The notes beneath the pieces were generated by a model that saw nothing but the letters and a program-made list of their open reading frames with translations, ran no database searches and was not told the origin of the DNA. 40,761 nucleotides of DNA from Clostridia bacterium. GTDB lineage: Bacteria > Bacillota > Clostridia > Christensenellales > CAG-138. How positions within the stretch are numbered: the stretch's first letter is position 1; every line of letters begins with the position of its first letter. Of the stretch, positions 4,702 to 40,355 are shown one piece after another. The DNA lies in the NCBI GenBank assembly GCA_017514685.1, contig JAFWJN010000003.1:1-40761 (forward strand), read 5' to 3'. A program made the position numbers and the translations under genes.

Positions 4702-4717
4702 ATCGGAATAGTCCGAT
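4702..4717. promoter_or_regulatory. Palindromic operator candidate before the symporter gene
   Basis: ATCGGA-ATAG-TCCGAT is a perfect 6-bp inverted repeat just downstream of the -10 box and 24 bases before the symporter ATG, a position at which a bound repressor would block transcription. No regulator gene is adjacent. Confidence 0.45.
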
Positions 4718-4862: not shown

Positions 4863-6449
4863 CTAACGCCGCCATCCGGCGACATCACACTGACCGGAGC
4901 TGTTCTCACCGCAGGCAAGATAGGAACCGTCTTGAAGCAAGACTGCGGCGTGTGTTCCTGAATAAGCAATTGCAATGATATCACTGCGATCCGATAGGAC
5001 GGAAATATCCATGTTTGCGGCCTGAGTCAGCCGGACGGAACCGTCCGCCATAAGACCGAGGATTCCGTTTGCCGTTGCTTCTATAGAAAGAACATCATTC
5101 CATTCTGCAACAAAGGGGGAACTGGAAACAAGGTGCCCGTCCGCGTTGATTCCTGCCGCGTATCCGTTTGCGGCGTCGATTGCAATCAGATTTTGAAACT
5201 CCCGGTTCAGATAGGATGCAGAAGTTGCCATAGCGGATCCGTCTTCTGATATTCCTACTAATGCGTATCCGCCTGCTGAAAGATCTTTGATATTTGTCCA
5301 TCCGGAAACAAGCGGGGCATAGTTATGGAAACCGAAGCAGAGAATCGAACCGTCCTTCAGGCGGACAACCGTATCAAAACCATGGGCTTCGATCTCGATT
5401 GCATCATGAATCCCGTCTGTTTCACACTGACCGTAGCGGTTGTCCCCTGTCGCCACGACTGTTCCATCTTTTTTCAATCCGATGGTATGAAAAGCGCCGG
5501 CAGAGACCGAAACAATATCTGTCCACCCGGACACATCACACTGTCCGTAAGAATGATCTCCGGCTGCAAGCACGGTTCCGTCTTGCCGCAAAGCCACCGT
5601 GTGCAAATTACCGACCGCGAGGACCTGCTTTGGAAGCTTATTTTGCTGTTTAAGCAGTTCATTACGCTTTTCTGCCTGGGCGGCATTCGTCACACGTGCG
5701 GCTTCCAGAATTTCGTCATCGCTTCTATTTTCATATAGATAGGGATAGCATGTTCTTTCCGCCCGGATCAGATCGGAATCATTCATCTTTCCTTTCTGCC
5801 AGAGTTCGAGAATGATTTTCAGACCGGCTTCCGGAGACTCGGATTGGAGCAGTTCCTCCGCCTGTACGATTATGATCTTTTCATTCAGTTCCTGCATGGA
5901 AGGATCTGTCGGATTTTTAGCGATATAATCAAGAGCGGTCTTAAGATCTCCGGCTTCAAAAGCGGCGGCGGCAATCTGCTTTCCGCATTCACGGTACCGT
6001 TCCGCAGCATCCTGATAGGACAGAACATAGGAAAACTGCTTTTCTGCTTCCGGGTAATCGCCCTTTTTCATCCACAAACACGCAAGTTCATACCGGCACA
6101 TCAGGATACGCTCATCCTCCTGAAGGGAATCTGTGTTGTCCAGAAGCGCAGCAAGCGCTTCTTCATACCGTTCTTCGCTCATCAGCCGGTCGATTTCCCG
6201 ATTAATTGCCTGTTCCAGAAGTTCGGATGCTTCCTTGGGCGTTTCATTCTTCTGTTCTGTTTCCCCGGCACGGGTAAGCCACAAAACCGCTTTTTCCGTA
6301 TCGCCTCTTTCCGCTGCCCGCGTTCCGATCTGCAGACAGATATAAGGATACAGCCACAGAACTGCTGCCGCAAAAGCCAAAAGCAGCAGAAACGCCAGCA
6401 GACTGACTCGCATCGCAGGATATGAAATTTCTTTCGACCGGTGTTTCAT
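4863..6449 (-). CDS. Membrane-anchored TPR plus RCC1-like seven-bladed propeller protein, copy 1
   Basis: A 528-aa protein without a name known to me. Residues about 13-36 form a single N-terminal membrane anchor with basic residues before it. Residues about 40-270 are TPR-like helical repeats (for example RYRECGKQIAAAAFEAGD). Residues about 280-528 hold seven RCC1-like repeats; the clearest read HTVALRQDGTVLAAGD-YGQCDVSGW and HTIGLKKDGTVVATGDNRYGQC, with the middle blades decayed. The last blade again ends GQCDVAGW, as if closing the ring. Seven blades is the count of a classical RCC1 propeller. By topology the repeats would lie outside the cytoplasm. The gene overlaps the DHHW stop by ATGA, so it is coupled to the MBOAT and DHHW genes. 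A paralogue sits in the same place in a second cassette (38644-40080). A scaffold or polymer-binding role is my inference. Confidence 0.8.
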   Translation of the reverse strand: MKHRSKEISYPAMRVSLLAFLLLLAFAAAVLWLYPYICLQIGTRAAERGDTEKAVLWLTRAGETEQKNETPKEASELLEQAINREIDRLMSEERYEEALAALLDNTDSLQEDERILMCRYELACLWMKKGDYPEAEKQFSYVLSYQDAAERYRECGKQIAAAAFEAGDLKTALDYIAKNPTDPSMQELNEKIIIVQAEELLQSESPEAGLKIILELWQKGKMNDSDLIRAERTCYPYLYENRSDDEILEAARVTNAAQAEKRNELLKQQNKLPKQVLAVGNLHTVALRQDGTVLAAGDHSYGQCDVSGWTDIVSVSAGAFHTIGLKKDGTVVATGDNRYGQCETDGIHDAIEIEAHGFDTVVRLKDGSILCFGFHNYAPLVSGWTNIKDLSAGGYALVGISEDGSAMATSASYLNREFQNLIAIDAANGYAAGINADGHLVSSSPFVAEWNDVLSIEATANGILGLMADGSVRLTQAANMDISVLSDRSDIIAIAYSGTHAAVLLQDGSYLACGENSSGQCDVAGWRR

Positions 6450-7945
6450 TTTCCGTCTCCTATGGATTTCCTGAGTTCTGTTCGATACAGATCTGCCGTA
6501 AAGAAGTTGGACTGTACAACATAGATATCATCGATTCCATAGTGATCGATATATTCTTTGATGGTTCCTCCAGCCTGTTCAACGGAATAATAGGTTGAGT
6601 GAGGACGGACAATATGGACCTCATCATAGTAATTCAGCATAAACGGAGCGAAAGCCATTCCCATGGAGTCACACACAAGCAGCATTTTTCTGCCGGTATT
6701 CTCATATCCGCGGATCATTTTCCATGGACGCATGTTCAGCCAGAGGATTGCCTGATAGCCGTTTGCGTCCGGATTGTTTAACGGATAGGGGGTTAATTCG
6801 GTAATATCGGTGACACGATAAAAGTCGTATGGGATGGAAGGCTCGATCATATCCACATAGTCTTTTGTTCCCTTTGGAAGCATATGCTCTACAGTTTTTG
6901 TGTTGGAACCCGAATACGGTTTGCTTTGGCGGATGATTTTATAATCTTCATAAGCCGCGGCTTTTTGCCCCATGGATTCTATCATCGCTTTGTGTACATA
7001 GTATGCTCCAAGCGTTGTCCAGTGATGATCCGTGAAGAAATAAACATATTCTCCGCTCCGGATATGGGGCTCGAGGATCTCCATTGTACGGAACACCGTA
7101 ATCTTTTCTTTGAGAAGCGGTTCAAGATAGTCTTCGGCTTCCGATTCATAGGCAGCATACTGATCCAGAGCCTGCGTATACTGAACCACATGTTCTCCGC
7201 GCTGAGCCAGAGCAACAAACATATGACCGTCCTTTGGCAACAGATCCGCCAGCCGGTTGAACAGATTTGCCGCATCGCGGATATGCCATTTCCGGTATTC
7301 CGAAATTTTCACTTTTGAACCATCATGCTTGATCAGATTGACAGAAACCATCTCGTCCCTGTTGGTGTCTTTGCGGTAGTCATAGTTGATGAGAGGGTTT
7401 CGCGCCATGGAAGATATGGATTGCGGCTTTTCGGAAAGATTTGCCGGTTGTTCCGGAGGTTCCGTTTGCTCAGCGGCCAGCGGTTCCGGGCTGGAATCAT
7501 AGGACGCAGCCGGTGCATCTTCCGAGTTTATTTCCGGACTCGGCTCCGGTGTGGAGGAGACCGGCTCCGGAGAAGAGGCAGGCGAAACTTCCGGCTTGTC
7601 AGGAACCGCTTCAGGCAGATCTTCTTCTGCATCAAGGGGAGTATCCATTGCAGCTAATTTGGTTTTTTGCTCTTTGGACAGAAGTGACAGTGAGTCCATA
7701 ATACGGTCGGAAAGATCGATCAGCTTCTGCCTGCCGATAAAACGGTCCGACAGATAGCGTTCCATTCCAAGCGCAAATTCTCCTGAGAAGACTGTTTCTG
7801 CGTCATGGGACGGAAAGGCTTCCAGCATGCGATTTTCAAATTCGGATGCTGTCGCTTCTTTCGGAGAAAAGGCAATTGTAAGGACACCGCAGCCCAAAAG
7901 CAGCAGCAGACACCACGTATACAAGATGACCCGGAACTGTTTCAT
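6446..7945 (-). CDS. DHHW family protein (AlgJ/AlgX-like), copy 1
   Basis: A 499-aa extracytoplasmic protein of the DHHW group, SGNH-hydrolase-like proteins related to the AlgJ/AlgX factors that transfer acetyl groups to exopolysaccharides. Residues 7-27 form an N-terminal anchor. Residues about 105-175 are a Pro/Ser/Glu-rich low-complexity spacer. The signature TDHHW lies at 305-309, and the CDSMG at 425-429 occupies the place of the usual GDS nucleophile motif, with S427 as candidate nucleophile and Cys for the Gly. The gene starts 11 bases after the MBOAT stop, with the stop lying inside the AGGAGG site, and overlaps the propeller gene by four bases. It presumably receives acyl groups passed across the membrane by the MBOAT protein. 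Confidence 0.82.
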   Translation of the reverse strand: MKQFRVILYTWCLLLLLGCGVLTIAFSPKEATASEFENRMLEAFPSHDAETVFSGEFALGMERYLSDRFIGRQKLIDLSDRIMDSLSLLSKEQKTKLAAMDTPLDAEEDLPEAVPDKPEVSPASSPEPVSSTPEPSPEINSEDAPAASYDSSPEPLAAEQTEPPEQPANLSEKPQSISSMARNPLINYDYRKDTNRDEMVSVNLIKHDGSKVKISEYRKWHIRDAANLFNRLADLLPKDGHMFVALAQRGEHVVQYTQALDQYAAYESEAEDYLEPLLKEKITVFRTMEILEPHIRSGEYVYFFTDHHWTTLGAYYVHKAMIESMGQKAAAYEDYKIIRQSKPYSGSNTKTVEHMLPKGTKDYVDMIEPSIPYDFYRVTDITELTPYPLNNPDANGYQAILWLNMRPWKMIRGYENTGRKMLLVCDSMGMAFAPFMLNYYDEVHIVRPHSTYYSVEQAGGTIKEYIDHYGIDDIYVVQSNFFTADLYRTELRKSIGDGK

Positions 7946-7956
7946 TCCGTTTCCTC

Positions 7957-9396
7957 CTAAAACCGGAAATAGATGAAGGGGTTATAACTCTGTCCGATCA
8001 GGGTTATGACCGAAAGCGCGAGAAGCAGAATGGAAATAAGCCCGGCCGCCGGCTCGAATCCGCACCGTTTCTGCCGGTCCCTCTTTTTCCAACGATCTGA
8101 GATCAGCCTGCAGGCCGGCGTGCTGAAGAACATCATCACAAGAATTACCAGCCCGTATTTACCCATCAGAAGAATCTGCTTTTCGTTGATAACAGGTATG
8201 ACATGAACCGCTCCATTTTCTGCTGTCATGCCGAACATGGCTAAAAGATGTGTCCATGCAAAAGAAATATCTTCATAGTAGAACAGGACCCAGCCGATCA
8301 GCACAAAAAACAGAGTGACAATATGGCGGATCACAGCGGGAATCGTATCGATCTTTTTGCCAAGCACGAGCTTTTCAATGATCAGAAGAATCCCGTAGAA
8401 GAGTCCCCAGATCAGAAAATTCCAGCTTGCTCCGTGCCACAATCCGGTAAGTCCCCAGACAATCAGAAGATTCAATACCAGGCGTACGGTACCTTTTCTG
8501 TTTCCGCCTAACGGAATATAGACATAATCGCGGAAGAAGGCTCCGAGCGACATATGCCATCTGCGCCAGAATTCTGTGATTGATGCTGAAAGGTATGGAT
8601 AATCAAAGTTTTCTTTATAAATAAAACCAAGCATCCGGCCGATTCCGATTGCCATATCGGAATATGCGGAAAAATCAAAATAGATCTGTAAACCGTAGAG
8701 AATCGCGCTGATCCATGCACCCAGAACGGTCATCGAGGTTGTGTCAGCGGTACCGAACGCGCTAAGAGCTGAGCCGCAAAGATTGGCGAGAAGCACTTTT
8801 TTTGCCAACCCAAGCGTAAACCGGCGGAAACCAAGGATGTATCCGGTTTTTGAGATTGTCCGGTGATCCAGCTGCTGTTCGATATCAGCATATTGAACGA
8901 TCGGCCCTGCGATCAGCTGAGGAAAACAGGAAACATATAATAAAAGTTTGAAAGGATTATTCTGGACTCTTGCTTTTCCCCGGTAAACATCCACGGTGTA
9001 AGTCAAGGCCTGAAAGGTATAAAAAGAGATACCGATCGGGAGAGGAAGCTTCTCCATGAGTTTTTCCTGATGAAAGAGACTGCCGAACGCGTTGACAAAA
9101 AAAGCGCAGTATTTGAACCAGAACAGAAGACCGAGTCCGGAGGTAATTCCCAGAATCAGAAGAACTTTCTTCCATCTCGGCGAGAGATCGTCTTTTTGCA
9201 TGGGAAGTGCGCAGAAATAGTTGACAGCAGTAACTGCAATCATGGCCAGGATCCACTTAGGCTCACCCCAGGCGTAAAAAATAAGCGAAGCCGCCAATAA
9301 TATACCGTTCTGATACCTGATATTGCCGGAAAGCAATACCAATGTGATCACAACCGGAAAAAAGAGCAATAAAAAAGTGAGTCCTGAAAAGACCAT
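7957..9396 (-). CDS. MBOAT family O-acyltransferase (AlgI/DltB-like), copy 1
   Basis: A polytopic membrane acyltransferase of 479 aa, typical of the AlgI group. It carries YAWGEP near residue 41, LPIGISFYTFQ at 119-129, CFPQLIAGPIV, DFSAYSDMAIG, FWRRWHMSLG, YIPLGGNRKG and LTGLWHGASWNF with the catalytic His at 321. The C-terminus IGQSYNPFIYFRF is identical to that of the second copy. The family moves acyl groups, usually acetyl from acetyl-CoA, across the membrane to extracellular polymers. I chose the ATG at 9396 because GGGAG lies six bases upstream and the encoded start MVFSGLTF matches the other copy; a longer open frame extends upstream without support. It leads the MBOAT-DHHW-propeller operon. 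Confidence 0.9.
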   Translation of the reverse strand: MVFSGLTFLLLFFPVVITLVLLSGNIRYQNGILLAASLIFYAWGEPKWILAMIAVTAVNYFCALPMQKDDLSPRWKKVLLILGITSGLGLLFWFKYCAFFVNAFGSLFHQEKLMEKLPLPIGISFYTFQALTYTVDVYRGKARVQNNPFKLLLYVSCFPQLIAGPIVQYADIEQQLDHRTISKTGYILGFRRFTLGLAKKVLLANLCGSALSAFGTADTTSMTVLGAWISAILYGLQIYFDFSAYSDMAIGIGRMLGFIYKENFDYPYLSASITEFWRRWHMSLGAFFRDYVYIPLGGNRKGTVRLVLNLLIVWGLTGLWHGASWNFLIWGLFYGILLIIEKLVLGKKIDTIPAVIRHIVTLFFVLIGWVLFYYEDISFAWTHLLAMFGMTAENGAVHVIPVINEKQILLMGKYGLVILVMMFFSTPACRLISDRWKKRDRQKRCGFEPAAGLISILLLALSVITLIGQSYNPFIYFRF

Positions 9397-9435: not shown

Positions 9436-9464
9436 ATTATAACATGGTAACCTATCCGGGGCAA
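9436..9464 (-). promoter_or_regulatory. Promoter of MBOAT cassette 1
   Basis: On the minus strand TTGCCC (9464-9459), a 17-base spacer and a perfect TATAAT (9441-9436) precede the MBOAT start by about 40 bases. The -35 box is part of the inverted repeat listed next. Confidence 0.6.
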
Positions 9465-12635: not shown

Positions 12636-13196
12636 TTACTGTTCTTTGGAAAGAGTGCCTTTTCCGGAACGGGTCTTCGAGTAGAGGAAGAGAAGAAGCG
12701 TTCCGATTACGCCCATGGAGATCGCATTCCACAGAGCTGCAACGGCACCCTGAGTGAAGACGAGGTTGGCAGGTTCGCTGTAGATGATGATGTCAAGCAG
12801 CGGAGCGACAACGATCCAGGAAATAACGTTTGCGGCAATCTGGAAGATGTTGAACACCAGAATATCTTTCCAGCCGAAAACCCCTTCATCCACTTTCAGA
12901 CGCGGATAGGCGAGGCCGACGATGCAGCAGGAAATGCCGGATGCAATAACCCAGCTCCACCACGGAGAACCGTACTGAACGGCATCAGAAATCGCATGCC
13001 CGATGAAAGCGATCAGGAAGCCGGCAATCGGGCCGAACATGGCGGCGAAGAAAGAACCGACACCGTATGCAGTCTGGATGGATGTTTCGGGAATGCCGGT
13101 CGGGATTTTTACATACATGAACAGAAGGGTAAACAATGCGGCACCGATACCGGTTGCCACGAGAGTCCTGGTTTTGAATTCAAACAGTTTCTTCAT
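12636..13196 (-). CDS. ECF transporter S component, UPF0397/COG4720 family
   Basis: Substrate-binding membrane subunit of an energy-coupling factor transporter, 186 aa, matching the family's usual 180-190. The N-terminal FKTRTLVATGIGAALFTLLF carries the short motif that docks EcfT, then KIPTGIPET and FGPIAGFLIAFIGHAISDAVQYG follow, all family hallmarks, with about six membrane helices. Members are usually labelled riboflavin-type, and some have been assigned to vitamin precursors such as hydroxymethylpyrimidine; the substrate cannot be read from sequence. It is the last gene after double ATPase, EcfT and SAM hydrolase, and may also have its own promoter. Confidence 0.85.
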   Translation of the reverse strand: MKKLFEFKTRTLVATGIGAALFTLLFMYVKIPTGIPETSIQTAYGVGSFFAAMFGPIAGFLIAFIGHAISDAVQYGSPWWSWVIASGISCCIVGLAYPRLKVDEGVFGWKDILVFNIFQIAANVISWIVVAPLLDIIIYSEPANLVFTQGAVAALWNAISMGVIGTLLLFLYSKTRSGKGTLSKEQ

Positions 13197-13236
13197 TTGA
13201 AAAGTTCCTCCTCATTAATATTATATATCATTTATT

Positions 13237-13265
13237 ACAATACTCCCCGGGGAAAGGCTTGTCAA
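13237..13265 (-). promoter_or_regulatory. Possible internal promoter for the S component
   Basis: On the minus strand TTGACA (13265-13260) is followed after 17 bases by TATTGT (13242-13237). The spacer contains a CCCCGGGG palindrome (13245-13252). The -35 lies across the SAM hydrolase stop codon. Confidence 0.35.
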
Positions 13266-14113
13266 GATTTGACAATATCCAGAATCCATTCCGGACCGAA
13301 GGAGACACCGTACTGTTCTTCAAACGATCCCTGTGTAACAGCAATCGCAAGTTTCATCATTTCATTGTTGTACAGCATCGGAGCACCTTTTTCGGCAAAG
13401 CCGAAGCTCTGATGAAACAGAATATCCTGTTCAAAAACAGGGATGTTGCCGTGCAGAATCGTGGCATGAACATAATCCCCGTAGGAAAAACCGGCCTTGT
13501 TAAAATCTTCCAGGGGAATATTGGACCATAGATTTCCGAAATTCGGATCATCGATTTCGAAAATTCCACGGACATGTCCTTCCTCTATACAAGGCTGAAG
13601 AATCGGAAGCTCTATGATTTCATCTACCGGGTAGGAAGGTCCGACACCCTCATAGTCAATGATACCGGAGGCAAGACGCGCAGCGGTGTATCCGAATAGA
13701 TCCCGCCCGTGGAAGACTGCCACTCCGCGCGTGGAGCGGAGACGGTTTACAGTCTCGTCAATCTGACGTACTTCCGTGATGCCGAATTCTTCTTTGATGT
13801 GAGTCAGGGAACCATTATCAGGGGTCACAATATAATAGCCGTTTGCTGTTTTTGCGACGCATGCCCTGCGAGAGGTTCCGACCCCCGGGTCAACGACTGA
13901 AACGAAAATGGTTCCTTTCGGCCAGAAAGGTACAGACTGAAGAAGACGGTAACTGGCAGACCAGATATCGTACTGGGGGATTTCATGGGTTCCGTCAAAG
14001 ATCTCGAGCTCACGGTCTACGGATTTTACCACACCGTACATTGCGCAGACAGCGCCTTCCTTGTAAGTAAAATCGGTCTGAAAGACCAGAATCGGCTTGT
14101 TGCTTTTGTCCAT
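13262..14113 (-). CDS. SAM hydroxide adenosyltransferase (SAM hydrolase, DUF62 family)
   Basis: A 283-aa enzyme of the fluorinase/chlorinase-like fold. Characterised DUF62 proteins split S-adenosylmethionine with water to adenosine and methionine; the halogenases are rarer relatives. Hallmarks are QTDFTYKEG with D14, VVDPGVGTSRRA, TPDNGSLTHI and FHGRDLFGYTAARLASG. I see no feature arguing for halide chemistry. It sits inside an ECF transporter operon, between EcfT and the S component, with only 19 bases after EcfT. That position suggests the transported compound and SAM or adenosine metabolism are linked. Confidence 0.85.
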   Translation of the reverse strand: MDKSNKPILVFQTDFTYKEGAVCAMYGVVKSVDRELEIFDGTHEIPQYDIWSASYRLLQSVPFWPKGTIFVSVVDPGVGTSRRACVAKTANGYYIVTPDNGSLTHIKEEFGITEVRQIDETVNRLRSTRGVAVFHGRDLFGYTAARLASGIIDYEGVGPSYPVDEIIELPILQPCIEEGHVRGIFEIDDPNFGNLWSNIPLEDFNKAGFSYGDYVHATILHGNIPVFEQDILFHQSFGFAEKGAPMLYNNEMMKLAIAVTQGSFEEQYGVSFGPEWILDIVKS

Positions 14114-14132
14114 TTCTTTCTCCTCCTGAGGT

Positions 14133-14969
14133 TTAGTGTAAAAAAGGATTCCAGAATCTTCCGTGATTAATAAACAGGGTAACAGCCAGTGATATCAGAA
14201 GAATAACGCCTGAAACAATGATAGCAGCAGCATCCCCTTTATGAAGCGGCTTGAAGGAATACCAGGTTCTTTTTTTGTGCTTGCCGAATCCTCTCAGATC
14301 CATCGCATTACTGACAATTTCTACCCGATCAAGAGAGGAGAAAACCAGCGGAACAAAAATATTCATGATGTTTTTGATTCGCGTACCGAGCTTTTCTTTC
14401 CTGGAAAGGTCGAGACCTCTTGCCTGTTGTGCGAGAGCAATGTCGTTATAGTCACGGATCATATCCGGGAAATAACGGAGCGTCAGAGCGACTGCGAATG
14501 AAGCCTTGTACGGAACTCCGATGGAACTCAGGGACGCTGCGAATTCGCTTGGGTTGGTGGTCAGCAGGAACATCATTCCCAAGGGGATGACAGAAAGGTA
14601 TTTAAGGACTTTCGTCCCCTGATAAAGAAGCTGCTCCGCAGTAACGGTATATCGGTCCGTGATGGAAAACAGGTCGTGCTCCGTGCCGTATATTTCTACA
14701 CCGTATTTCGGACTGAACAGAAAAGTCAGGACAAAATTGATCGCGAGGAAGATCATAACATAATAAAGCATGACTTTGATCTGGGAAAACCGTATTTCGG
14801 ACACATGCAGAATCCAGAAAGAAAAAATCAGGACGAAGATGATGACCCTTGCATCATAGGAGAACATGACGGTAAATGTCAGGATCAGGAAGCAGACAAG
14901 TTTTGTCATGCCTGACAGATTAAAGACGAAATTATCACGCTCTACATAATCAAACAGTTTAGACTTCAT
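14133..14969 (-). CDS. ecfT: ECF transporter transmembrane subunit EcfT
   Basis: Membrane coupling subunit of 278 aa. It starts MKSKLFDYVERDNFVFNLSGMTKL and contains several membrane helices followed by LRYFPDMIRDYNDIALAQQARGLDLSR and SNAMDLRGFGKHKKRT; the two alanine/arginine-glycine coupling-helix motifs (QARG and DLRG) contact the two ATPase halves. I chose the ATG at 14969, which overlaps the ATPase gene by 11 bases and has GAGGAGG nine bases upstream. A longer open frame to 15050 lies wholly inside the ATPase gene and is unsupported. Confidence 0.88.
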   Translation of the reverse strand: MKSKLFDYVERDNFVFNLSGMTKLVCFLILTFTVMFSYDARVIIFVLIFSFWILHVSEIRFSQIKVMLYYVMIFLAINFVLTFLFSPKYGVEIYGTEHDLFSITDRYTVTAEQLLYQGTKVLKYLSVIPLGMMFLLTTNPSEFAASLSSIGVPYKASFAVALTLRYFPDMIRDYNDIALAQQARGLDLSRKEKLGTRIKNIMNIFVPLVFSSLDRVEIVSNAMDLRGFGKHKKRTWYSFKPLHKGDAAAIIVSGVILLISLAVTLFINHGRFWNPFLH

Positions 14970-16674
14970 GGCGGTTGGCCTCCTCATAGTCGATAAACTG
15001 CTGGACAAACCCCTGCGGATCGGAAAGTCCGACACGGGTTGCAAGCTCATACAGCGATGTCAGCTTCAGGTTGGCGCGTTCCGCTAAAGATGCGTTTGTC
15101 AGGACAGCGACGGAACTGTCATCTCCGATCTTTTTTCCTCCGGCAATAACGATTGCATGCGGAGTATATTCCAGCATCAGATGCATATCATGCGTGATCA
15201 TAATAATCGTGATTCCCTGGCGGTTCAGCCCCCGCAGGAATTCCATGATATCGGTATAATGCCGATAATCCTGTCCGGCGGTGGGTTCATCCAGAATCAG
15301 AATCTCGGGATCCATAACAAGCATCGAGGCGATCGTTACACGCTTTTTCTGCCCGAAGGATAATGCGGAGATCGGCCAGTTCCGCATCGGATACAATCCG
15401 CAGATCTTAAGCGCATGCTCAACTTTCTGCCGGATCTCATCTTCCGGATATTTACGGATTTGCAGACCAAGCGCAACTTCATCATAAATCATCGCTTTTG
15501 AAATCATCTGATTTGGATTCTGCATGACATATCCGATTTTAAGAGAACGCTCTTTAATGGTCCAGTCTTTTATGTTCTCACCATTAAAATAAACGCTTCC
15601 GGAATCTTCCTTTACAAAACCGCAAAGTACTTTGGCCAGGGTACTTTTCCCTGCGCCGTTTGTTCCGACAATGGATACCATTTCTCCGCGCTGGATGTCG
15701 AAACTGATATCCTGCAGTATTTTTCGTTTTGAGGTGTACTGGAAGTACAGATTCTGCACAGAAAGAATGATGTTACCTGGAACTTTTTCTTCATGCGGCG
15801 GCCGGGAAGTGTGCCACTCGGTAAGCGGTTCCCGAATTTTATCAACATCCAGTGTTTCCAGATAACCTGGATGCAGATCCGGCGTAAGGGTAACTCCGGC
15901 ATATTTGAGAGCGGTGGCATAGAGCGGTTCGCGGTTTCCGAGCTTTTGAAGGGTATCAGATGAGATCAGTTCATCCGGAGTGCTGTCGGAAACGATTCTT
16001 CCGTCGCTGATTACAATAATACGATCGACATGGCGGTAAAGGACATCTTCCAAACGGTGCTCGATGATCAGGATTGTCTTGTGATAGTCTTTCTGGATTC
16101 GATCAATCAGATCGATTGCAGTCTTACCGGTAAGCGGATCCAGATTTGCGAGCGGCTCATCAAAGAGCAGAACCTCGACATCATCCACCATAACGCCGGC
16201 GAGAGCAGTGCGCTGTTTCTGCCCTCCGGAAAGCTCAAAGGGAGAGGAATTAAGAAGGGTACCCATATCAACCATGTCCGCAACTTTTTGAACGGTTTCT
16301 TTCATTGCACTCTGTTCAATCCGGTCATTCTCCAGAGAAAATGCGATGTCTTCTCCGACTGTCAGACCGACGAACTGTCCGTCCGAATCCTGCAGGACTG
16401 TTCCGATTCTTTTGGACCGATCGAAAAGATTATCCTTAGAAGCGTCTTTACCGTCAATCAGAAGACTTCCGGTAATCGTACCTTTATAGGAAAAGGGAAT
16501 CAGTCCGTTAATGCAATGCGCGAGAGTGCTTTTTCCGCATCCGGAAGGCCCGACAATCAGAATTTTTTCTCCCGGATAAATATCCAGATTGATATTGTAA
16601 AGTGTTGGTTCACTTTGACTGAAATATTGAAAGGAAAAATCCCGGAATGAAATTATGGGTGTTATGGTTTCCAT
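14959..16674 (-). CDS. ECF transporter double ATPase (fused EcfA-EcfA')
   Basis: A 571-aa cytoplasmic ABC ATPase with two complete nucleotide-binding domains in one chain. Domain 1: Walker A GPSGCGKST at 42-50, signature LSGGQKQR, Walker B VLLFDEPLANLDP. Domain 2: Walker A GTNGAGKST, signature LSFGQKKR, Walker B ILILDEPTAGQD. The fusion replaces the usual EcfA1/EcfA2 pair, as in some YkoD-type modules. Two ATGs six bases apart are possible; the second (16674) lies eight bases from AAGGAG and is preferred to 16680. It leads the operon, divergent from the AbiE relic. No riboswitch is evident in the AT-rich leader. Confidence 0.9.
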   Translation of the reverse strand: METITPIISFRDFSFQYFSQSEPTLYNINLDIYPGEKILIVGPSGCGKSTLAHCINGLIPFSYKGTITGSLLIDGKDASKDNLFDRSKRIGTVLQDSDGQFVGLTVGEDIAFSLENDRIEQSAMKETVQKVADMVDMGTLLNSSPFELSGGQKQRTALAGVMVDDVEVLLFDEPLANLDPLTGKTAIDLIDRIQKDYHKTILIIEHRLEDVLYRHVDRIIVISDGRIVSDSTPDELISSDTLQKLGNREPLYATALKYAGVTLTPDLHPGYLETLDVDKIREPLTEWHTSRPPHEEKVPGNIILSVQNLYFQYTSKRKILQDISFDIQRGEMVSIVGTNGAGKSTLAKVLCGFVKEDSGSVYFNGENIKDWTIKERSLKIGYVMQNPNQMISKAMIYDEVALGLQIRKYPEDEIRQKVEHALKICGLYPMRNWPISALSFGQKKRVTIASMLVMDPEILILDEPTAGQDYRHYTDIMEFLRGLNRQGITIIMITHDMHLMLEYTPHAIVIAGGKKIGDDSSVAVLTNASLAERANLKLTSLYELATRVGLSDPQGFVQQFIDYEEANRHEV

Positions 16675-16870
16675 CTCCATATCTCCTTGAGAGAGAAGGC
16701 TCAAGAATTTGAACCTATAATAAATAAGTTTAGCATAATTGTTGATGAAAAAACATATAGATATCAAAAACAATTAAACTTTTGTAAGATAAACAATCTG
16801 AAGAAGACAGCAAAAAACGGAGGAAAAGAAGAGGATCAAAAAGTTATAAATGACAATAGTATCGATTTTT

Positions 16871-33275: not shown

Positions 33276-33848
33276 TCAGTTTCCGTTCTGGAAGATGGTA
33301 AACCGGTTCAGACGGATGCGGACGACTCCGAGGACTTCGGATGAATTGATGCATCCGATTTTCGGGTTTCGGCTGTCTCCTCCGTAATTGCGGTCATCTG
33401 ACAGAACAAACAGACAGCCTTCCGGAACGGTAACCGGCTCAAAACTGTACTGCATGGGAGTCAGATAATCATATTCGCTGAGTCCGTATTCCCCATCGAT
33501 CATAACTACGCCGTTATTTGCAGAAACGGTTTCGCCGGAAAGACCAACAATCCGCTTAATGATCAATGATCCGCTCTCCCGATCGGCAAAAACGACGATA
33601 TCGCTTCGATGCAGACGGAAGAAATACTTATAAATCCGGTCAAACAACACGGTTTCCCCGCTCATTAAAGTAGGTTCCATGGAATGATCTGAAATCATTA
33701 CCGGGGAAAACCACCCAAAGAGCAATGCAAACACAATCGCGAACCCGATGACGATCGCGCTGATATTTCTCAGCAGGGTCTGCTGCTTATGTGAGCGCTT
33801 GAACCTTTTGGTCCGGCTCTCAATGATTTCCACATCATTCGTTTCCAT
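33276..33848 (-). CDS. lepB: Signal peptidase I, second copy
   Basis: A 190-aa membrane-anchored serine protease that removes signal peptides from exported proteins. One membrane helix (about 28-48), then box B SDHSMEPTLMSGETV with the nucleophile S56, box D LIIKRIVGLSGETV with the general base K98, and box E FVLSDDRNYGGDSRN. It begins two bases after the other signal peptidase stop. The two are only moderately alike, so they are old paralogues or different specificities rather than a fresh duplication. Confidence 0.92.
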   Translation of the reverse strand: METNDVEIIESRTKRFKRSHKQQTLLRNISAIVIGFAIVFALLFGWFSPVMISDHSMEPTLMSGETVLFDRIYKYFFRLHRSDIVVFADRESGSLIIKRIVGLSGETVSANNGVVMIDGEYGLSEYDYLTPMQYSFEPVTVPEGCLFVLSDDRNYGGDSRNPKIGCINSSEVLGVVRIRLNRFTIFQNGN

Positions 33849-33850
33849 GT

Positions 33851-34468
33851 TTATACCAGGTGAAAATTTGAAAACGGAAAGAGAACAAAATGCGCTTTTC
33901 CGATAATCCGCTCAAGAGGGATCGCTCCTACCAGATTGTTGCGGCTGTCGTTGGAATTGATCCGGTTGTCACCGAGAACAAAAACCTCTCCATCCCGGAC
34001 GGTTACTGGACTGTCGATTCCAATGGTGGTATCTCTGTCTTCCGACAGATACGGTTCATCGACCATGATACCGTTGACATAAAGCTTTCCACCGATTGTC
34101 TGCAGGGTATCACCGGCTACCGCGACAACTCTTTTGACGCGGGTCTGATAAGATAGCCCTTTGGTTTCATAGTAGAGATCCGGATAATAGCAGATTACGA
34201 TATCTCCGGCCTTGGGAGCGGAAAACGCATAGGTCAGTTTTTCCGTAAAAAGATAATCATTATTTTGGAGCGTTTCTGTCATGGAAGTTCCGTTGACACG
34301 GATCGGCTCCAGAATTGCGGCGCGCACGGCAATGGTTATCACTATGACAAGCAGCAGGTAGAAAACCGTATCAAAGACACGCCAGAAAGCTCCGCCATTT
34401 AAACGTTCGTTCCGCTTCTGTGCGATCTGGCACATTGTATTCTGTTCAGGAGAAAGATCCTTTCTCAT
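33851..34468 (-). CDS. lepB: Signal peptidase I, first copy
   Basis: A 205-aa signal peptidase with one membrane helix (about 30-50). Box B NGTSMTETLQNNDYLF with the nucleophile S62, box D TRVKRVVAVAGDTL with the base K112, and box E FVLGDNRINSNDSRN. The chosen ATG (34468) forms an ATGA overlap with the DUF951 gene upstream, with AAGGA six bases before it. A longer frame runs back through DUF951 and is unsupported. Confidence 0.92.
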   Translation of the reverse strand: MRKDLSPEQNTMCQIAQKRNERLNGGAFWRVFDTVFYLLLVIVITIAVRAAILEPIRVNGTSMTETLQNNDYLFTEKLTYAFSAPKAGDIVICYYPDLYYETKGLSYQTRVKRVVAVAGDTLQTIGGKLYVNGIMVDEPYLSEDRDTTIGIDSPVTVRDGEVFVLGDNRINSNDSRNNLVGAIPLERIIGKAHFVLFPFSNFHLV

Positions 34469-34674
34469 GCGTTTTCCTTTTCTTCTTCTCTGTGCGCAAG
34501 AATCTTTTTCGCAGCGCGCACAAAGTCCTGCCTGTCCAGCATTACGAGCCTGCCGCAGGCAGCACATTTGATCTTGATATCCGCGCCCACTCTTGTGATC
34601 AGCCATTCGTTGCTGCCGCAGGCGTGAGGTTTTTTCATCTGTACGGTATCACCGAGTGAAAACTGTTCCAGCAA
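34465..34674 (-). CDS. DUF951 family small protein
   Basis: A 69-aa protein of the DUF951 (YyzM-like) family found across Firmicutes. The body carries VQMKKPHACGSNEW, RVGADIKIKCAACGRLVML and three cysteines arranged like a small zinc-ribbon or knuckle. The function is unknown. It sits two bases after the alpha/beta hydrolase stop and overlaps signal peptidase by four bases. Confidence 0.88.
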   Translation of the reverse strand: MLEQFSLGDTVQMKKPHACGSNEWLITRVGADIKIKCAACGRLVMLDRQDFVRAAKKILAHREEEKENA

Positions 34675-35603: not shown

Positions 35604-35722
35604 GGCGGAGGCGGAATTCTTTGCATTTCGGACACAATATCCGAATAACCAGATGGTTCCGCTTTATCCGTATACGGGAGACATTGCCTCTCCGTTTTTC
35701 TTTTTGCTCCAGGGAACCCGAA

Positions 35723-35776: not shown

Positions 35777-37180
35777 TTGGTCTTTTCCAGTCTGACTTTC
35801 TTATTGCTGTTTTTACCGGCATTGCTGCTCCTGTATTTTCTGAGTGAAAATATTCGTTGGCGCAATGGCGTTCTTGTTGCTTTCTCTTTATTGTTCTACG
35901 CATGGGGAGAGCCGGTGATGGTTCTTCTTCTGATCGGAACAACCTTGTTCCAGTATTTGGCAGCCATTCGGATCTCCCGGGCAAAAGAATCCGCAGCGAA
36001 AAAATTCTGGCTTGCGCTTGCGCTTCTGGTATCTTTAGGGGCGCTTATCTATTTTAAATATTCCTGGTTTCTCGTTGACTCTCTGGCGAAACTGTTTCGT
36101 ATCGAAACTGCATTCAGCGGACCTGTGCTTCCAATCGGGATTTCATTTTATACGTTTCAGATTCTGACCTATACCATCGATGTCTATTACGGACGTGTTC
36201 CGGAACAGAAAAACCCGTTTCGGCTGCTTCTTTATGTGAGCTGTTTTCCGCAGCTGATAGCAGGACCGATCGTAAAATATGCAGATATCGCGGAAGCTCT
36301 TGACGGAAGAACGGTTTCCAAACGGGATTTTGCTTTCGGAATCAGACGTTTTCTGGTCGGCCTTTCCAAGAAAGTGCTTCTTGCAAATATTTGCGGGAAA
36401 GCATTGTCGGCGTGTATGGAAGGAACCGGTATTTCCGTGCTTGGCGCATGGTTTACAGCGTTGCTGTATGCGCTTCAGCTGTACTTTGATTTTTCCGCCT
36501 ATTCCGACATGGCAATCGGGCTGGGTCGCGTTCTGGGCTTTTCATACCGGGAAAATTTCCGCTATCCGTACATCTCCCTCAGTGCAAGTGAATTCTGGAG
36601 AAGATGGCACATCTCGCTTGGTTCATTTTTCAGAGAATATGTTTATATTCCTCTAGGAGGGAACCGAAAAGGAAAGGCAAGGACAATTCTGAATCTTCTG
36701 ATTGTCTGGATATTGACAGGACTCTGGCACGGTGCCGCCTGGAACTTTGCACTGTGGGGGCTTTACTGGTTTGTGCTTCTGCTGGTTGATAAAATGCTTC
36801 AAAGCGTCTGGGAACGTTTCCCGAAGCCTGTTCTGTGGGTCGGAACATTTCTTTTGACGCTGATCGGCTGGGTGCTGTTTTATCATACGGATCTTTCAGC
36901 AGCGGGAATGCATCTCGGAGCAATGTTCGGGATTCACGCTTCAGGGCTGGCCGACAAAACGGTTCTCAACGTTCTGAAACAATATGCGCTGTATCTTCCT
37001 GTGGCGGTTCTGTGCTGTCTTCCGATTGTTCCAACGGTGAAAAAGCTTCTCAAAAAACATCCTGCGCTGCTGGCTGCTTCGGAACCTGCTTTTGCGGTAT
37101 GCGCTGTATTGCTCGGCGTAGTGTCTCTTTTGTTCCTGATTGGGCAAAGTTATAATCCTTTTATCTACTTCCGGTTTTGA
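35777..37180 (+). CDS. MBOAT family O-acyltransferase (AlgI/DltB-like), copy 2
   Basis: Paralogue of the MBOAT protein at 7957-9396, 467 aa. Same motifs: YAWGEP, LPIGISFYTFQ, CFPQLIAGPIV, DFSAYSDMAIG, FWRRWHISLG, YIPLGGNRKG and LTGLWHGAAWNF with the catalytic His at 318, and the identical end IGQSYNPFIYFRF. Start: GGAGGA lies 9 bases before a TTG, and the encoded VFSSLTFLLLFLP matches the start of copy 1 (MVFSGLTFLLLFFP), so TTG is the likely start codon. An ATG at 35621 opens a longer frame across the promoter and is rejected. Confidence 0.9.
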   Translation: MVFSSLTFLLLFLPALLLLYFLSENIRWRNGVLVAFSLLFYAWGEPVMVLLLIGTTLFQYLAAIRISRAKESAAKKFWLALALLVSLGALIYFKYSWFLVDSLAKLFRIETAFSGPVLPIGISFYTFQILTYTIDVYYGRVPEQKNPFRLLLYVSCFPQLIAGPIVKYADIAEALDGRTVSKRDFAFGIRRFLVGLSKKVLLANICGKALSACMEGTGISVLGAWFTALLYALQLYFDFSAYSDMAIGLGRVLGFSYRENFRYPYISLSASEFWRRWHISLGSFFREYVYIPLGGNRKGKARTILNLLIVWILTGLWHGAAWNFALWGLYWFVLLLVDKMLQSVWERFPKPVLWVGTFLLTLIGWVLFYHTDLSAAGMHLGAMFGIHASGLADKTVLNVLKQYALYLPVAVLCCLPIVPTVKKLLKKHPALLAASEPAFAVCAVLLGVVSLLFLIGQSYNPFIYFRF

Positions 37181-37187
37181 TCTGATT

Positions 37188-38630
37188 ATGAAAAAACGAT
37201 TATCATTCTACATTACATTTGCGTGCATCGCTGTTTTCGGGTCGCTTGGTCTGATGCTTCTGATCCGCGGAGAAAAGGAAGCGCGTCCGTCCGACTCGGA
37301 GAACCGTATGCTGGCCGGATTCCCGGTGTTTTCATTGAGCTCTGTTGCAGACGGGAGTTTCATGGAAGGGATGGAATCCTATCTTTCCGATGCAATGCCG
37401 GCAAGAAATACGATTATTGTCCAGACTGCTTCCTGGATGAATACGCTTTCCGTCGGACGTCCGGTTTCTTCTGACGAGGATATCTATATGGAAGTAGAAG
37501 AATTCGGCAGAGAAGATGATACATTTGAACAGGTCGAAACCATTCAGATCGTGCATGACCCGGAGGAAGAGGTATTGCCGGAGACGGTTCAGACCACAGA
37601 GGGACAATCTTCTTTCTTTGAGGAAGCGACGGCGGCTCCGTCGGCGGAACCGGAGGAAACAGCCGCACTGGTTTCAGAAGGTGAGCCGGTTCAAACCCCG
37701 GCGGCTTTGGAAATAAAAGATCCTTCCGTTGCAATCAGGACTTGCACGTTTGTTCAGCTTATGGATGACGGCGGCTCCAGACTCGTTTATACGTTTCCGA
37801 AGGAACATGTCGCAAATGCGGTCAAAGTCCTGAACGCTTATCGGAAAGCGCTTCCCGAGGACGGGCATGTTTTCTTTTCCCAGATACCGTTCCCGGGAAC
37901 GGCGTTCGCGCTTCAGACTGATAAATATACCGGCTGGAAGAGCGAACTCGAAGAAATTTTATCCGCAAACACCTATACCGGCGTGGAAATCGTGAGTGCG
38001 CTGGAAGTACTGGAGCAGCCTCTTTTGAGCGGAGAAGATCTTTATTTTCATAACGATCATCACTGGAAACCCCGGGCAGCAAGTTATGTCGCGCAGGCGA
38101 TGCAGGAACAGATCGGAATCAACGCACTGAGTTATGACGAGTATTCCTTCCAGCATCTGGGCGGGTTTTACGGGTCAAAAGCGAATGCGAGTCCGGAAGA
38201 GAAGAAGAAAACAAAGCCGGACACGATCGATGTTCTGATTCCGAATCTACCGGTAAAAGGATACCTGATCGACTGGAACAAAAAGGAAACGGACGGGGTA
38301 TTCATGGTTCTGAATAGGCATAGTTATCTGGCTTACCTCGGAGGAACATTGGGACCGTGGCGCAGGTATGAGACCGGCGTCGACTGCGGAAGGAATTGCC
38401 TTGTGATAGGGGACTCGTATATCTGCGCGTTTGTTCCGTTCCTTGCCCCGTATTATGAAGAGGTCCATACCACTGATATGCGTCAGGCATATTTTGATGC
38501 AGCTCACCGGAAATGGTCCGTTTCCGACTATCTGAAATGGAATGAAATCGATGATGTCTATATTGTGCTTTCGACATCATCCGGAGTGAACTCATCCTAT
38601 ATGCTCTCATATCTGATGAGATATCTGTAA
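37188..38630 (+). CDS. DHHW family protein (AlgJ/AlgX-like), copy 2
   Basis: A 480-aa paralogue of the DHHW protein at 6446-7945. An N-terminal anchor at about 8-27, the shared SENRML...FPVFS segment, an acidic/proline-poor spacer at about 95-175, NDHHW at 289-293, and an intact GDS at 408-410 in LVIGDSYICAFVPF. In copy 1 the same place reads CDS. The gene begins seven bases after the MBOAT stop without a clear ribosome binding site, which suggests coupled translation. Role presumed to be acyl transfer to an extracellular polymer. Confidence 0.82.
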   Translation: MKKRLSFYITFACIAVFGSLGLMLLIRGEKEARPSDSENRMLAGFPVFSLSSVADGSFMEGMESYLSDAMPARNTIIVQTASWMNTLSVGRPVSSDEDIYMEVEEFGREDDTFEQVETIQIVHDPEEEVLPETVQTTEGQSSFFEEATAAPSAEPEETAALVSEGEPVQTPAALEIKDPSVAIRTCTFVQLMDDGGSRLVYTFPKEHVANAVKVLNAYRKALPEDGHVFFSQIPFPGTAFALQTDKYTGWKSELEEILSANTYTGVEIVSALEVLEQPLLSGEDLYFHNDHHWKPRAASYVAQAMQEQIGINALSYDEYSFQHLGGFYGSKANASPEEKKKTKPDTIDVLIPNLPVKGYLIDWNKKETDGVFMVLNRHSYLAYLGGTLGPWRRYETGVDCGRNCLVIGDSYICAFVPFLAPYYEEVHTTDMRQAYFDAAHRKWSVSDYLKWNEIDDVYIVLSTSSGVNSSYMLSYLMRYL

Positions 38631-38643
38631 GGAGGCACCGGAA

Positions 38644-40080
38644 ATGAAATCTAAAATCCGAACAATAATAGGTGCCGTCGTTGTCACAGTTGCGGCAATG
38701 ATACTGGTATCCTGCCTGTGGTCGCTTGAGGAAAAGGCCACGCAGTCTTTGGAGGAGAAGGCTATTTCCGCCGCAGAACAGGAAAACTGGGAGCTGGCGT
38801 ATAGTTACGCGGAGGAAGCAGATAAATCGGGGAGTACGGAAATGCTTTCCGAAATCGGATACCGTAATGCCGAAAAAGCGCTGCAAAGCGGTGAATATCT
38901 TTCCGCCCAAGAACAGTTTGAGGCGCTCGGAGCGTTTCGGGACGCGCAGGAACGTGTCCGTGAATGCAGATATCTTTGGGCGGATTCACTGGAAGCAGCA
39001 GGGGATGATTCTGCGGCAAAAGAAGCCTTTTTTGCGCTGATTCCTTATTCTGATTCACTGGATCGGTATCGCGCATGCTGCTATAAACTTGCGGAACAGG
39101 AACTGGAATGCGGAAACAGCAGGGAGGCCTTTTTGGCGTTTTCAGAATTAATTCCTTTCAGCAATTCTGAAGAGCGGGCGGTTGCAATCGCAATAGAATT
39201 AACGGGCGAATCGGATCCGGAGAAAGCGGTTGCATTCGCAAAGGGCTTTTCCGAAGAGCAGTGGGAGCAGATTGAGGCACTGGGAAAAGCAAGAGACGGC
39301 TTGCGAATGAATTACATTGCCGCGGGCAAAATGCATGCTGCGATACTGCTGCCGGACGGAACGGTAACGGCGTTTGGGGATAATACATTCGGTCAATGTT
39401 CGACAGATTCTTTCCGGAATATAAAAGCAATCGCAGCCGGATTTCAGCACACTTTGGGATTGCGCACAGACGGGACGGTAGCAGCGACAGGAGATAATTC
39501 CTGCAGTCAATGCGAAGTCGGTTCCTGGACGGATGTCGTTTTTATTGCATGCGGTGCATGGGACAGTTACGGAATCCGTTCAGACGGTACACTGCTTCAT
39601 TGCGGCTTCTCAGATTTGAATCTGGATGGATGGACTGAGCTGATGTCAATCCATGCCAGTGAAATCTCTGTTATCGGAGTGAGAAAAGATAGCACGGTTC
39701 TCTGCACTTCTGACCGTGGCCGGTTCTCCGGAAGTGATTACTGCAATGCGGAAATAGCGATAGGATCGGCGTATGCATTAAAGGAAGATGGAACAGTACA
39801 GTCAAACGATTCTGATCTCGCAGAATGGAAGAACATTGTTGCCTTGGAATGCAGTGCAACCATACTGGTAGGAATATCTGCTGACGGAACGCTTGAAGTA
39901 AAAGAACTCTTGCCGGTTTCTTCTTCTTTTATCTCTCAACTTCTGAATGAGCAAAAGGTCATAGGTGTTACCTGTGCAGGGACATATGCATTGATTCTTC
40001 ACGAAGACGGGACTATAAGCACCTGCGGTGAAGCCCCGGCAGAAATATCGGAAAATCTTTCGCACATTAAGATTGTTTGA
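38644..40080 (+). CDS. TPR plus RCC1-like seven-bladed propeller protein, copy 2
   Basis: A 478-aa paralogue of the protein at 4863-6449, in the same position after DHHW and with AAGGAGG just upstream. The N-terminus has a hydrophobic segment ending ILVSC (C24), a plausible lipobox, so this copy may be a lipoprotein where copy 1 has a plain membrane anchor. Residues about 30-210 hold TPR-like helices (RVRECRYLWADSLEAAGDD, RYRACCYKLAEQELECGNS). Residues about 220-478 contain seven RCC1-like repeats; the second is clearest (HTLGLRTDGTVAATGDNSCSQC), and the middle blades are decayed as in copy 1. Function unknown. Confidence 0.8.
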   Translation: MKSKIRTIIGAVVVTVAAMILVSCLWSLEEKATQSLEEKAISAAEQENWELAYSYAEEADKSGSTEMLSEIGYRNAEKALQSGEYLSAQEQFEALGAFRDAQERVRECRYLWADSLEAAGDDSAAKEAFFALIPYSDSLDRYRACCYKLAEQELECGNSREAFLAFSELIPFSNSEERAVAIAIELTGESDPEKAVAFAKGFSEEQWEQIEALGKARDGLRMNYIAAGKMHAAILLPDGTVTAFGDNTFGQCSTDSFRNIKAIAAGFQHTLGLRTDGTVAATGDNSCSQCEVGSWTDVVFIACGAWDSYGIRSDGTLLHCGFSDLNLDGWTELMSIHASEISVIGVRKDSTVLCTSDRGRFSGSDYCNAEIAIGSAYALKEDGTVQSNDSDLAEWKNIVALECSATILVGISADGTLEVKELLPVSSSFISQLLNEQKVIGVTCAGTYALILHEDGTISTCGEAPAEISENLSHIKIV

Positions 40081-40278: not shown

Positions 40279-40355
40279 GTGCCTGTAGCTCAGCTGGATA
40301 GAGCGTTGGACTCCGACTCCAAAGGTCGCACGTTCAAATCGTGTCAGGCACGCCA
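40279..40355 (+). tRNA. tRNA-Arg, anticodon CCG
   Basis: Full cloverleaf in 77 bases: acceptor GTGCCTG/CAGGCAC, D arm GCTC-GAGC, anticodon stem TTGGA/TCCAA with loop CTCCGAC (anticodon CCG, reading CGG codons), T stem GCACG/CGTGT with loop TTCAAAT, discriminator G and encoded CCA. A tyrosine recombinase gene lies downstream facing it, so the 3' half is a likely integration site. Confidence 0.93.

Follow-up and report, generated by a model that had tools for sequence, protein, structure and literature searches.

A TPR-RCC1 propeller protein encoded with MBOAT-DHHW acyltransferase pairs in a lineage of Clostridia

Why should a gene for a propeller of RCC1 repeats stand directly behind a pair of genes of the kind that acylates surface polymers? 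The question is raised by positions 4863-9396, minus strand, of a contig from a gut Clostridia bacterium (JAFWJN010000003.1, assembly GCA_017514685.1), where genes for an MBOAT protein, a DHHW-family SGNH enzyme and a membrane-anchored TPR plus RCC1 propeller protein form a three-gene cassette. The window analysed here is this entire contig (40,761 nucleotides; C49 in our numbering), one of 61 in a 2.37-Mb genome that is 82.6% complete. We find that the propeller protein has joined a known two-component acyltransferase as a third component throughout one lineage, and we think it rather probable that the cassette works as a three-component, membrane-anchored polymer acyltransferase.

The tight packing described in the first-pass annotation of this DNA is borne out by the reading frames and their Pfam matches. 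An 11-base gap (7946-7956) separates the MBOAT and DHHW genes, the DHHW and propeller genes overlap by 4 bases (6446-6449), and ribosome-site-like sequences precede the DHHW start (AGGAGG) and the RCC1 start (AGGAG). The cassette was rightly labelled copy 1, since a second lies in the same window and a third on another contig of the genome (C53). Its genes are as follows.

7957..9396, minus strand: first gene, an MBOAT (AlgI/DltB/PatA-like membrane O-acyltransferase; PF03062, E 9.3e-31)
6446..7945, minus strand: second gene, a DHHW-family SGNH enzyme (PF14286, E 2.2e-16; 60.6 bits against a cut-off of 25)
4863..6449, minus strand: third gene, a TPR-RCC1 propeller protein (RCC1_2 repeats, PF13540, E 4.5e-27; hydrophobic N-terminus)

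The association of the third gene with the other two is not due to chance, because all 33 propeller matches of at least 300 bits that we found in 61 genomes adjoin a DHHW gene. An MBOAT gene is also present at 32 of these 33 loci, and the exception (L103) sits 83 bases from a contig end. One propeller frame holds a stop (L096) and another runs off its contig (L120). Among the matches listed that scored below 300 bits, those examined were one on G031:C40, a few from the scan described next and the two of this genome; the first of these (L128) has no DHHW or MBOAT gene within its stretch. Across 396 genomes of the order, a scan from which 20 stretches were taken gave ten new DHHW-propeller loci in three family-level groups, eight of them with an MBOAT gene in view; the remainder comprised one repeat, a propeller fragment cut by the end of its contig (L246) and eight RCC1 stretches without a DHHW gene. 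Among named genomes, the best 80 of 453 DHHW loci included eight with a propeller gene and 72 without. Four of these eight duplicate contigs of genus relatives (compared over 3-4 kb each); the four duplicate records are metagenome-type Clostridia or Clostridiales. Two of them carry titles that name the omasum of cattle and goat, and the other two bear RUG names, which denote the rumen.

In total, there are 47 distinct DHHW-propeller loci in Clostridia, some of which are near-copies in sister species, spread over three family-level groups (f1, f17 and f4); an MBOAT gene is in view at 44. More widely, a phylum sample of 398 genomes including this one, with up to four candidates scored per genome, contained no other full-length propeller match at E <= 1e-45, and the one other genome matched at this threshold did so at profile positions 229-330 only, in a 1383-residue frame. 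The first-pass annotation had proposed the third gene as a constant partner, had suggested searching genomes for RCC1-repeat genes beside MBOAT-DHHW pairs, and had taken non-conservation of the propeller gene in related genomes as the result that would speak against it. Because the gene is kept through the lineage, at 47 loci, this is not what the search returned. The idea of a constant partner therefore holds within one lineage and not for the enzyme family at large: 83 other DHHW loci have no propeller gene, 67 of them with an MBOAT gene directly upstream.

The three genes also appear to have been inherited together. Over 42 cassettes, the Mantel correlation of pairwise distances was 0.83 for DHHW and MBOAT, 0.74 for DHHW and propeller, and 0.87 for MBOAT and propeller, and none of 2000 permutations was as high. 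In the 10 genomes with two or three cassettes, none of 2000 within-genome partner shuffles reached the observed value for any gene pair. When each gene was cut into six clusters, the labels of the three agreed at most cassettes; L132, L247 and the D3 group cluster differently between genes. In a quick tree, the cassette propellers (45 rows) lie on one side of a branch with 11 other RCC1 proteins on the other (Shimodaira-Hasegawa-like approximate likelihood ratio support 96), several of those 11 being on long branches. A DHHW tree was made from 135 frames less four duplicates and one of fewer than 300 residues, leaving 130 (47 with a propeller gene, L096 included, and 83 without). In the quick version of this tree the propeller label needs two changes; a tree holding the 47 propeller-linked enzymes together beats it by 19 log units (p-AU 0.727, approximately unbiased test), so that a single DHHW clade is compatible with the data and not proven. 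The profiles were built from the propeller-linked clade, and DHHW scores thus part the two classes partly by design, whereas the presence of the neighbouring gene is independent of that. The propeller gene was probably recruited once in the ancestor of this Clostridia lineage, after which the cassette was duplicated and diversified, with up to three now found per genome.

What kind of protein was recruited? The AlphaFold model of the copy 1 propeller protein has a mean predicted local distance difference test score (pLDDT) of 89.8 and a predicted template modelling score (pTM) of 0.59; because of the latter, the placing of the TPR part relative to the propeller is unsure. Three parts can be told apart.

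6309..6422, minus strand: N-terminal helix with a hydrophobic anchor, residues 10-47 (AlphaFold model)
5637..6299, minus strand: TPR-like helical stack, residues 51-271 (model helices and consensus TPR match)
4908..5621, minus strand: seven-bladed RCC1 propeller, residues 277-514 (AlphaFold model)

A hydrophobic N-terminus is found in 45 of 46 homologues of the protein. The TPR_2 score of copy 1 (18.2 bits) is below the Pfam cut-off of 27; the model shows a helical stack, and the profile of the propeller-protein family matches consensus TPR proteins (E 4.5e-9).

The following sites of the two enzymes bear on how the cassette may act.

8434..8436, minus strand: His321 of the WHG motif, presumed catalytic His of the MBOAT, invariant in the three copies of this genome
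7960..7977, minus strand: C-terminal FIYFRF of the MBOAT, an FxYxxF acyl-shuttle motif (Tyr476), from the sequence
7412..7648, minus strand: disordered linker of the DHHW enzyme, rich in Pro, Glu, Ser, Thr and Ala, residues 100-178 (pLDDT below 50)
7019..7030, minus strand: DHHW motif within TDHHW, with Asp306 and His308 of the presumed triad, from the alignment
6665..6667, minus strand: Ser427, presumed nucleophile, in CDS in copy 1 where most other DHHW proteins have KDS or KES, from the alignment
6599..6607, minus strand: RPH in place of the Block II DxR motif of the DHHW enzyme, from the alignment

The MBOAT domain of copy 1 scores 107.8 bits against a family cut-off of 27, and its profile matches DltB structures (E 1.4e-26). 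WHG is present in 44 of 44 cassette MBOATs, and F.Y..F stands at the C-terminal end of 39 of the 44 distinct ones, the remaining five ending in NIYYNF. Passages of PMC12148441 report that PatA acetylates the tyrosine of a C-terminal motif of this FxYxxF type and that an acetylated tyrosine peptide serves PatB as acetyl donor; they propose the same relay for other MBOAT-SGNH pairs and are also our source for the role of the MBOAT histidine.

The model of the DHHW enzyme (mean pLDDT 79.9) consists of an N-terminal membrane helix, the disordered linker and an SGNH-type domain; among solved structures, 4nzk and Bacillus cereus PatB1 (5v8d/5v8e) match best. The triad Asp, His and Ser is conserved in all 130 aligned rows; the Asp, second His and Trp of the DHHW motif are kept in 47/47 clade members and 83/83 others, with DHHW spelled out in 45 of the 47 and DYHW in two. 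What distinguishes the propeller-linked enzymes lies just before the serine. Two positions ahead of it, C, G, S, A or T stands in all 47, against K in 76 of the 83 others; the residue directly before it is always D in the 47, and the 83 others have D (41), E (39) or N (3). Three relatives without a propeller gene (L121, L126 and L127) likewise have no K before the serine, so that loss of the lysine is not tied to the propeller. These are MBOAT-DHHW pairs (L121 6627-9494, L126 6104-9033, L127 4728-7604) which are near the propeller clade by score, have the linker, and carry DIHW or DMHW where DHHW is expected; they perhaps represent the state preceding recruitment of the propeller. The long low-complexity linker was considered as a mark of the propeller class and rejected, since it is found in 44 of the 47 enzymes with a propeller gene and also in 57 of the 83 without.

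Based on these findings and on characterised systems, we propose the following scheme. By analogy with PatA and DltX, the MBOAT would load the tyrosine of its own C-terminal FxYxxF motif with an acyl group, which is probably acetyl drawn from acetyl-CoA. By analogy with PatB1, the membrane-anchored DHHW enzyme would then receive the acyl group from this tail on its serine, outside the cell, and transfer it to a surface-polysaccharide hydroxyl. The TPR-RCC1 protein, held by its one N-terminal helix with the TPR stack and propeller predicted to lie outside, would be a dedicated partner that may hold the polymer, dock the DHHW enzyme, or both.

That the MBOAT-DHHW pair acylates polymers, as had been supposed, follows from family membership; the alginate enzymes named as its example are not the closest relatives. 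The nearest characterised enzyme of solved structure is PatB1 (profile E 1.2e-23, Foldseek E 2e-13), a DHHW enzyme described in passages of PMC9487903 as a wall-polysaccharide O-acetyltransferase. PatA1/PatB1 of B. cereus, which O-acetylates the secondary cell wall polysaccharide, likewise pairs an MBOAT with a DHHW-family SGNH enzyme of the same Ser-His-Asp pattern. The systems differ in that the passages of PMC9487903 describe no propeller partner while the cassette has one, and in that PatB1 has KDS and DxRY, whereas the K is absent from all 47 propeller-linked enzymes and the DxR from copy 1.

The alginate machinery offers a parallel for the third component. AlgI/AlgJ/AlgX with AlgK and AlgF also combine an MBOAT and a circularly permuted SGNH enzyme with a TPR partner. 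Since AlgK, a TPR protein, binds AlgX and the polymer (passages of PMC9734138), a TPR partner in polymer O-acetylation has a precedent, and AlgF mediates interactions in the same acetylation pathway (PMC10641220). In contrast to the present protein, AlgK is an outer-membrane lipoprotein, AlgX has its own carbohydrate-binding module, and the passages of PMC9734138 mention no RCC1 part; the propeller protein might do separately what AlgK and that module do for alginate. Alginate itself was rejected as the likely polymer, as the copy 1 DHHW enzyme scores 24.6 bits for the AlgX family (PF16822), below the cut-off of 26.5. DltB/DltX/DltD, which D-alanylates lipoteichoic acid, likewise relays through a tyrosine motif from an MBOAT to an SGNH-type enzyme, although here the motif is on the MBOAT itself. 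D-alanylation was also rejected (DltB equivalog TIGR04091, 134.6 bits against a cut-off of 375). A pyruvylated wall polysaccharide with a surface layer was considered too: SLH-domain (PF00395) and pyruvyl-transferase (PF04230) searches gave no match in the genome, a result that is not decisive at 82.6% completeness.

Several observations weigh against the three-component scheme. The partial Mantel correlation of DHHW and propeller given MBOAT is 0.05, which leaves specific DHHW-propeller co-evolution unsupported and indicates no coupling of the two beyond inheritance of the whole cassette. As 83 of the 130 DHHW rows come without it, the propeller is not needed for the acylation chemistry generally. 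At two loci from the order scan (L243 and L245), whose contigs end approximately 0.5 and 0.96 kb upstream, the remaining sequence shows no MBOAT match. Flanking families are shared by at most four propeller cassettes (profile annotation covered the flanks in the window), and the idea of a conserved cassette neighbourhood was rejected. Finally, the activity of the copy 1 enzyme itself is less sure, because the DxR oxyanion-hole motif is absent.

Three other explanations have to be considered. The first is that the propeller, instead of binding polymer, regulates or docks the DHHW enzyme and so sets where or when the enzyme acts. This is modelled on BLIP-II, an RCC1-like propeller that clamps serine beta-lactamases and shares with the cassette protein and other RCC1 propellers the seven-bladed RCC1-type fold. 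BLIP-II is a free secreted propeller; the cassette protein joins its propeller to a TPR stack and a membrane anchor. We regard this explanation as unlikely, though the best placed of the three.

The second concerns copy 1 and its seven relatives, which may be catalytically altered or use another acyl group, since their DxR has become RPH. The change is confined to this subgroup: RPH is found in 8 of the 47 clade members, namely all eight of the copy 1 subgroup, with a D.R pattern in the 39 remaining members and in 83/83 enzymes outside the clade; copies 2 and 3 have DMR and DLR. In PatB1, Arg359 of this motif forms the oxyanion hole (passages of PMC9487903). Against this, Ser, His and Asp are kept in all eight, and copy 1 keeps the MBOAT and its FxYxxF tail; we find altered catalysis or another acyl group in this subgroup doubtful.

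It is improbable, lastly, that the third gene is co-transcribed with the pair but encodes a surface protein of independent function, such as an adhesin or a factor that binds the wall, with no part in acylation: TPR-RCC1 proteins do occur alone or in other architectures in these genomes, as would befit a general surface module, and flanking genes are not conserved, but the persistence of 47 loci over three family-level groups, the absence of partner swapping in the 10 multi-cassette genomes and the separate clade formed by the cassette propellers among those compared all speak against it.

A more specific form of the three-component scheme would make the propeller the acceptor-recognition subunit, with co-resident cassettes writing several marks and copy 1 moving a non-acetyl group or using another kind of acceptor; we offer this as a tentative idea, with the odds against it. 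Relative to the MBOAT, median distances are 1.75 times as large for the DHHW enzyme and 1.46 times for the propeller, which fits change on the acceptor side but also a slow change of membrane enzymes generally. If the idea were true, each cassette would keep the MBOAT donor machinery with its own faster-diverging DHHW enzyme and propeller, and one cell could write several acylation marks on different polymers or sites. To our knowledge, little is settled about the choice of acceptor polymer by MBOAT-SGNH pairs, which are usually regarded as two-part systems. In the present lineage, cassettes occur naturally in sets of two or three within one genome, with the propeller constant beside its pair, so that acceptor choice and partner specificity could be addressed through one small extracellular protein.

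The earlier statement that no role of RCC1 repeats in polymer acylation has been described agrees with the open-access literature as far as the matches listed go. Judged by title and the opening of the abstract, no paper naming both MBOAT and RCC1 deals with polymer acylation in bacteria; those on O-acetylation or AlgI operons make no mention of RCC1 in the parts matched; and an assigned role for bacterial TPR-RCC1 proteins was not found among the matches. The scheme proposed here, if true, would provide a first function for these proteins.

The other copies and the rest of the genome have the following features. All three DHHW genes of the genome are inside cassettes. Of its five MBOAT genes, the two outside cassettes have other neighbours, and of its five RCC1-repeat genes, the two outside cassettes have other architectures. 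Copy 2 occupies 35777-40080 on the plus strand of the window.

35777..37180, plus strand: MBOAT of copy 2 (PF03062, E 4e-30; likely TTG start after GGAGG, longest frame opening at 35621)
37188..38630, plus strand: DHHW enzyme of copy 2 (PF14286, 72.2 bits; likely ATG start, longest frame opening at 37140)
38644..40080, plus strand: TPR-RCC1 propeller protein of copy 2 (PF13540, E 2e-19; falls in the cassette-propeller clade)

A tRNA gene (40279-40352) lies directly downstream of copy 2. Upstream of and divergent from it, with one hydrolase gene between, are two adjacent signal peptidase genes (33276-34606; PF10502, E 9.3e-30 and 1.2e-39). Elsewhere in the window, a row of genes at 12636-16773 encodes the S component of an energy-coupling factor transporter (PF07155), an S-adenosylmethionine hydroxide adenosyltransferase, CbiQ and ATP-binding cassette proteins. 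Possible transcription signals of copy 1 are weak.

9436..9464, minus strand: promoter-like site upstream of the copy 1 MBOAT gene (6 sites found against 6.2 expected in shuffles)
4702..4717, minus strand: terminator-like hairpin downstream of the copy 1 third gene

Near copy 3, a family 2 glycosyltransferase gene (PF00535, E 1.4e-36) is found approximately 4.7 kb away on the opposite strand with two genes between; it could not be tied to the cassette. RCC1 proteins also occur in other settings. In L029 (G000:C46, 5521-7854; 777 residues), the RCC1 repeats lie between a hydrophobic N-terminus and a phosphodiester glycosidase domain at the C-terminus (PF09992, E 1.3e-20), another case in this genome of an enzyme linked to an RCC1 propeller. 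L030 (G000:C10, 5584-6660) is a lone 358-residue protein whose RCC1 repeats come after what by eye are a zinc ribbon and a membrane helix. L257 (G035:C24, 166-2259) is a lipoprotein-like frame with RCC1 repeats and then dockerin-like and sortase-like stretches seen by eye, Pfam at 0.001 giving the RCC1 part only. At L027 (G000:C51, 4648-9343), an MBOAT without RCC1 has a larger protein on either side; the first carries BspA-type leucine-rich repeats (PF13306, E 1.5e-11), and the second has no Pfam match.

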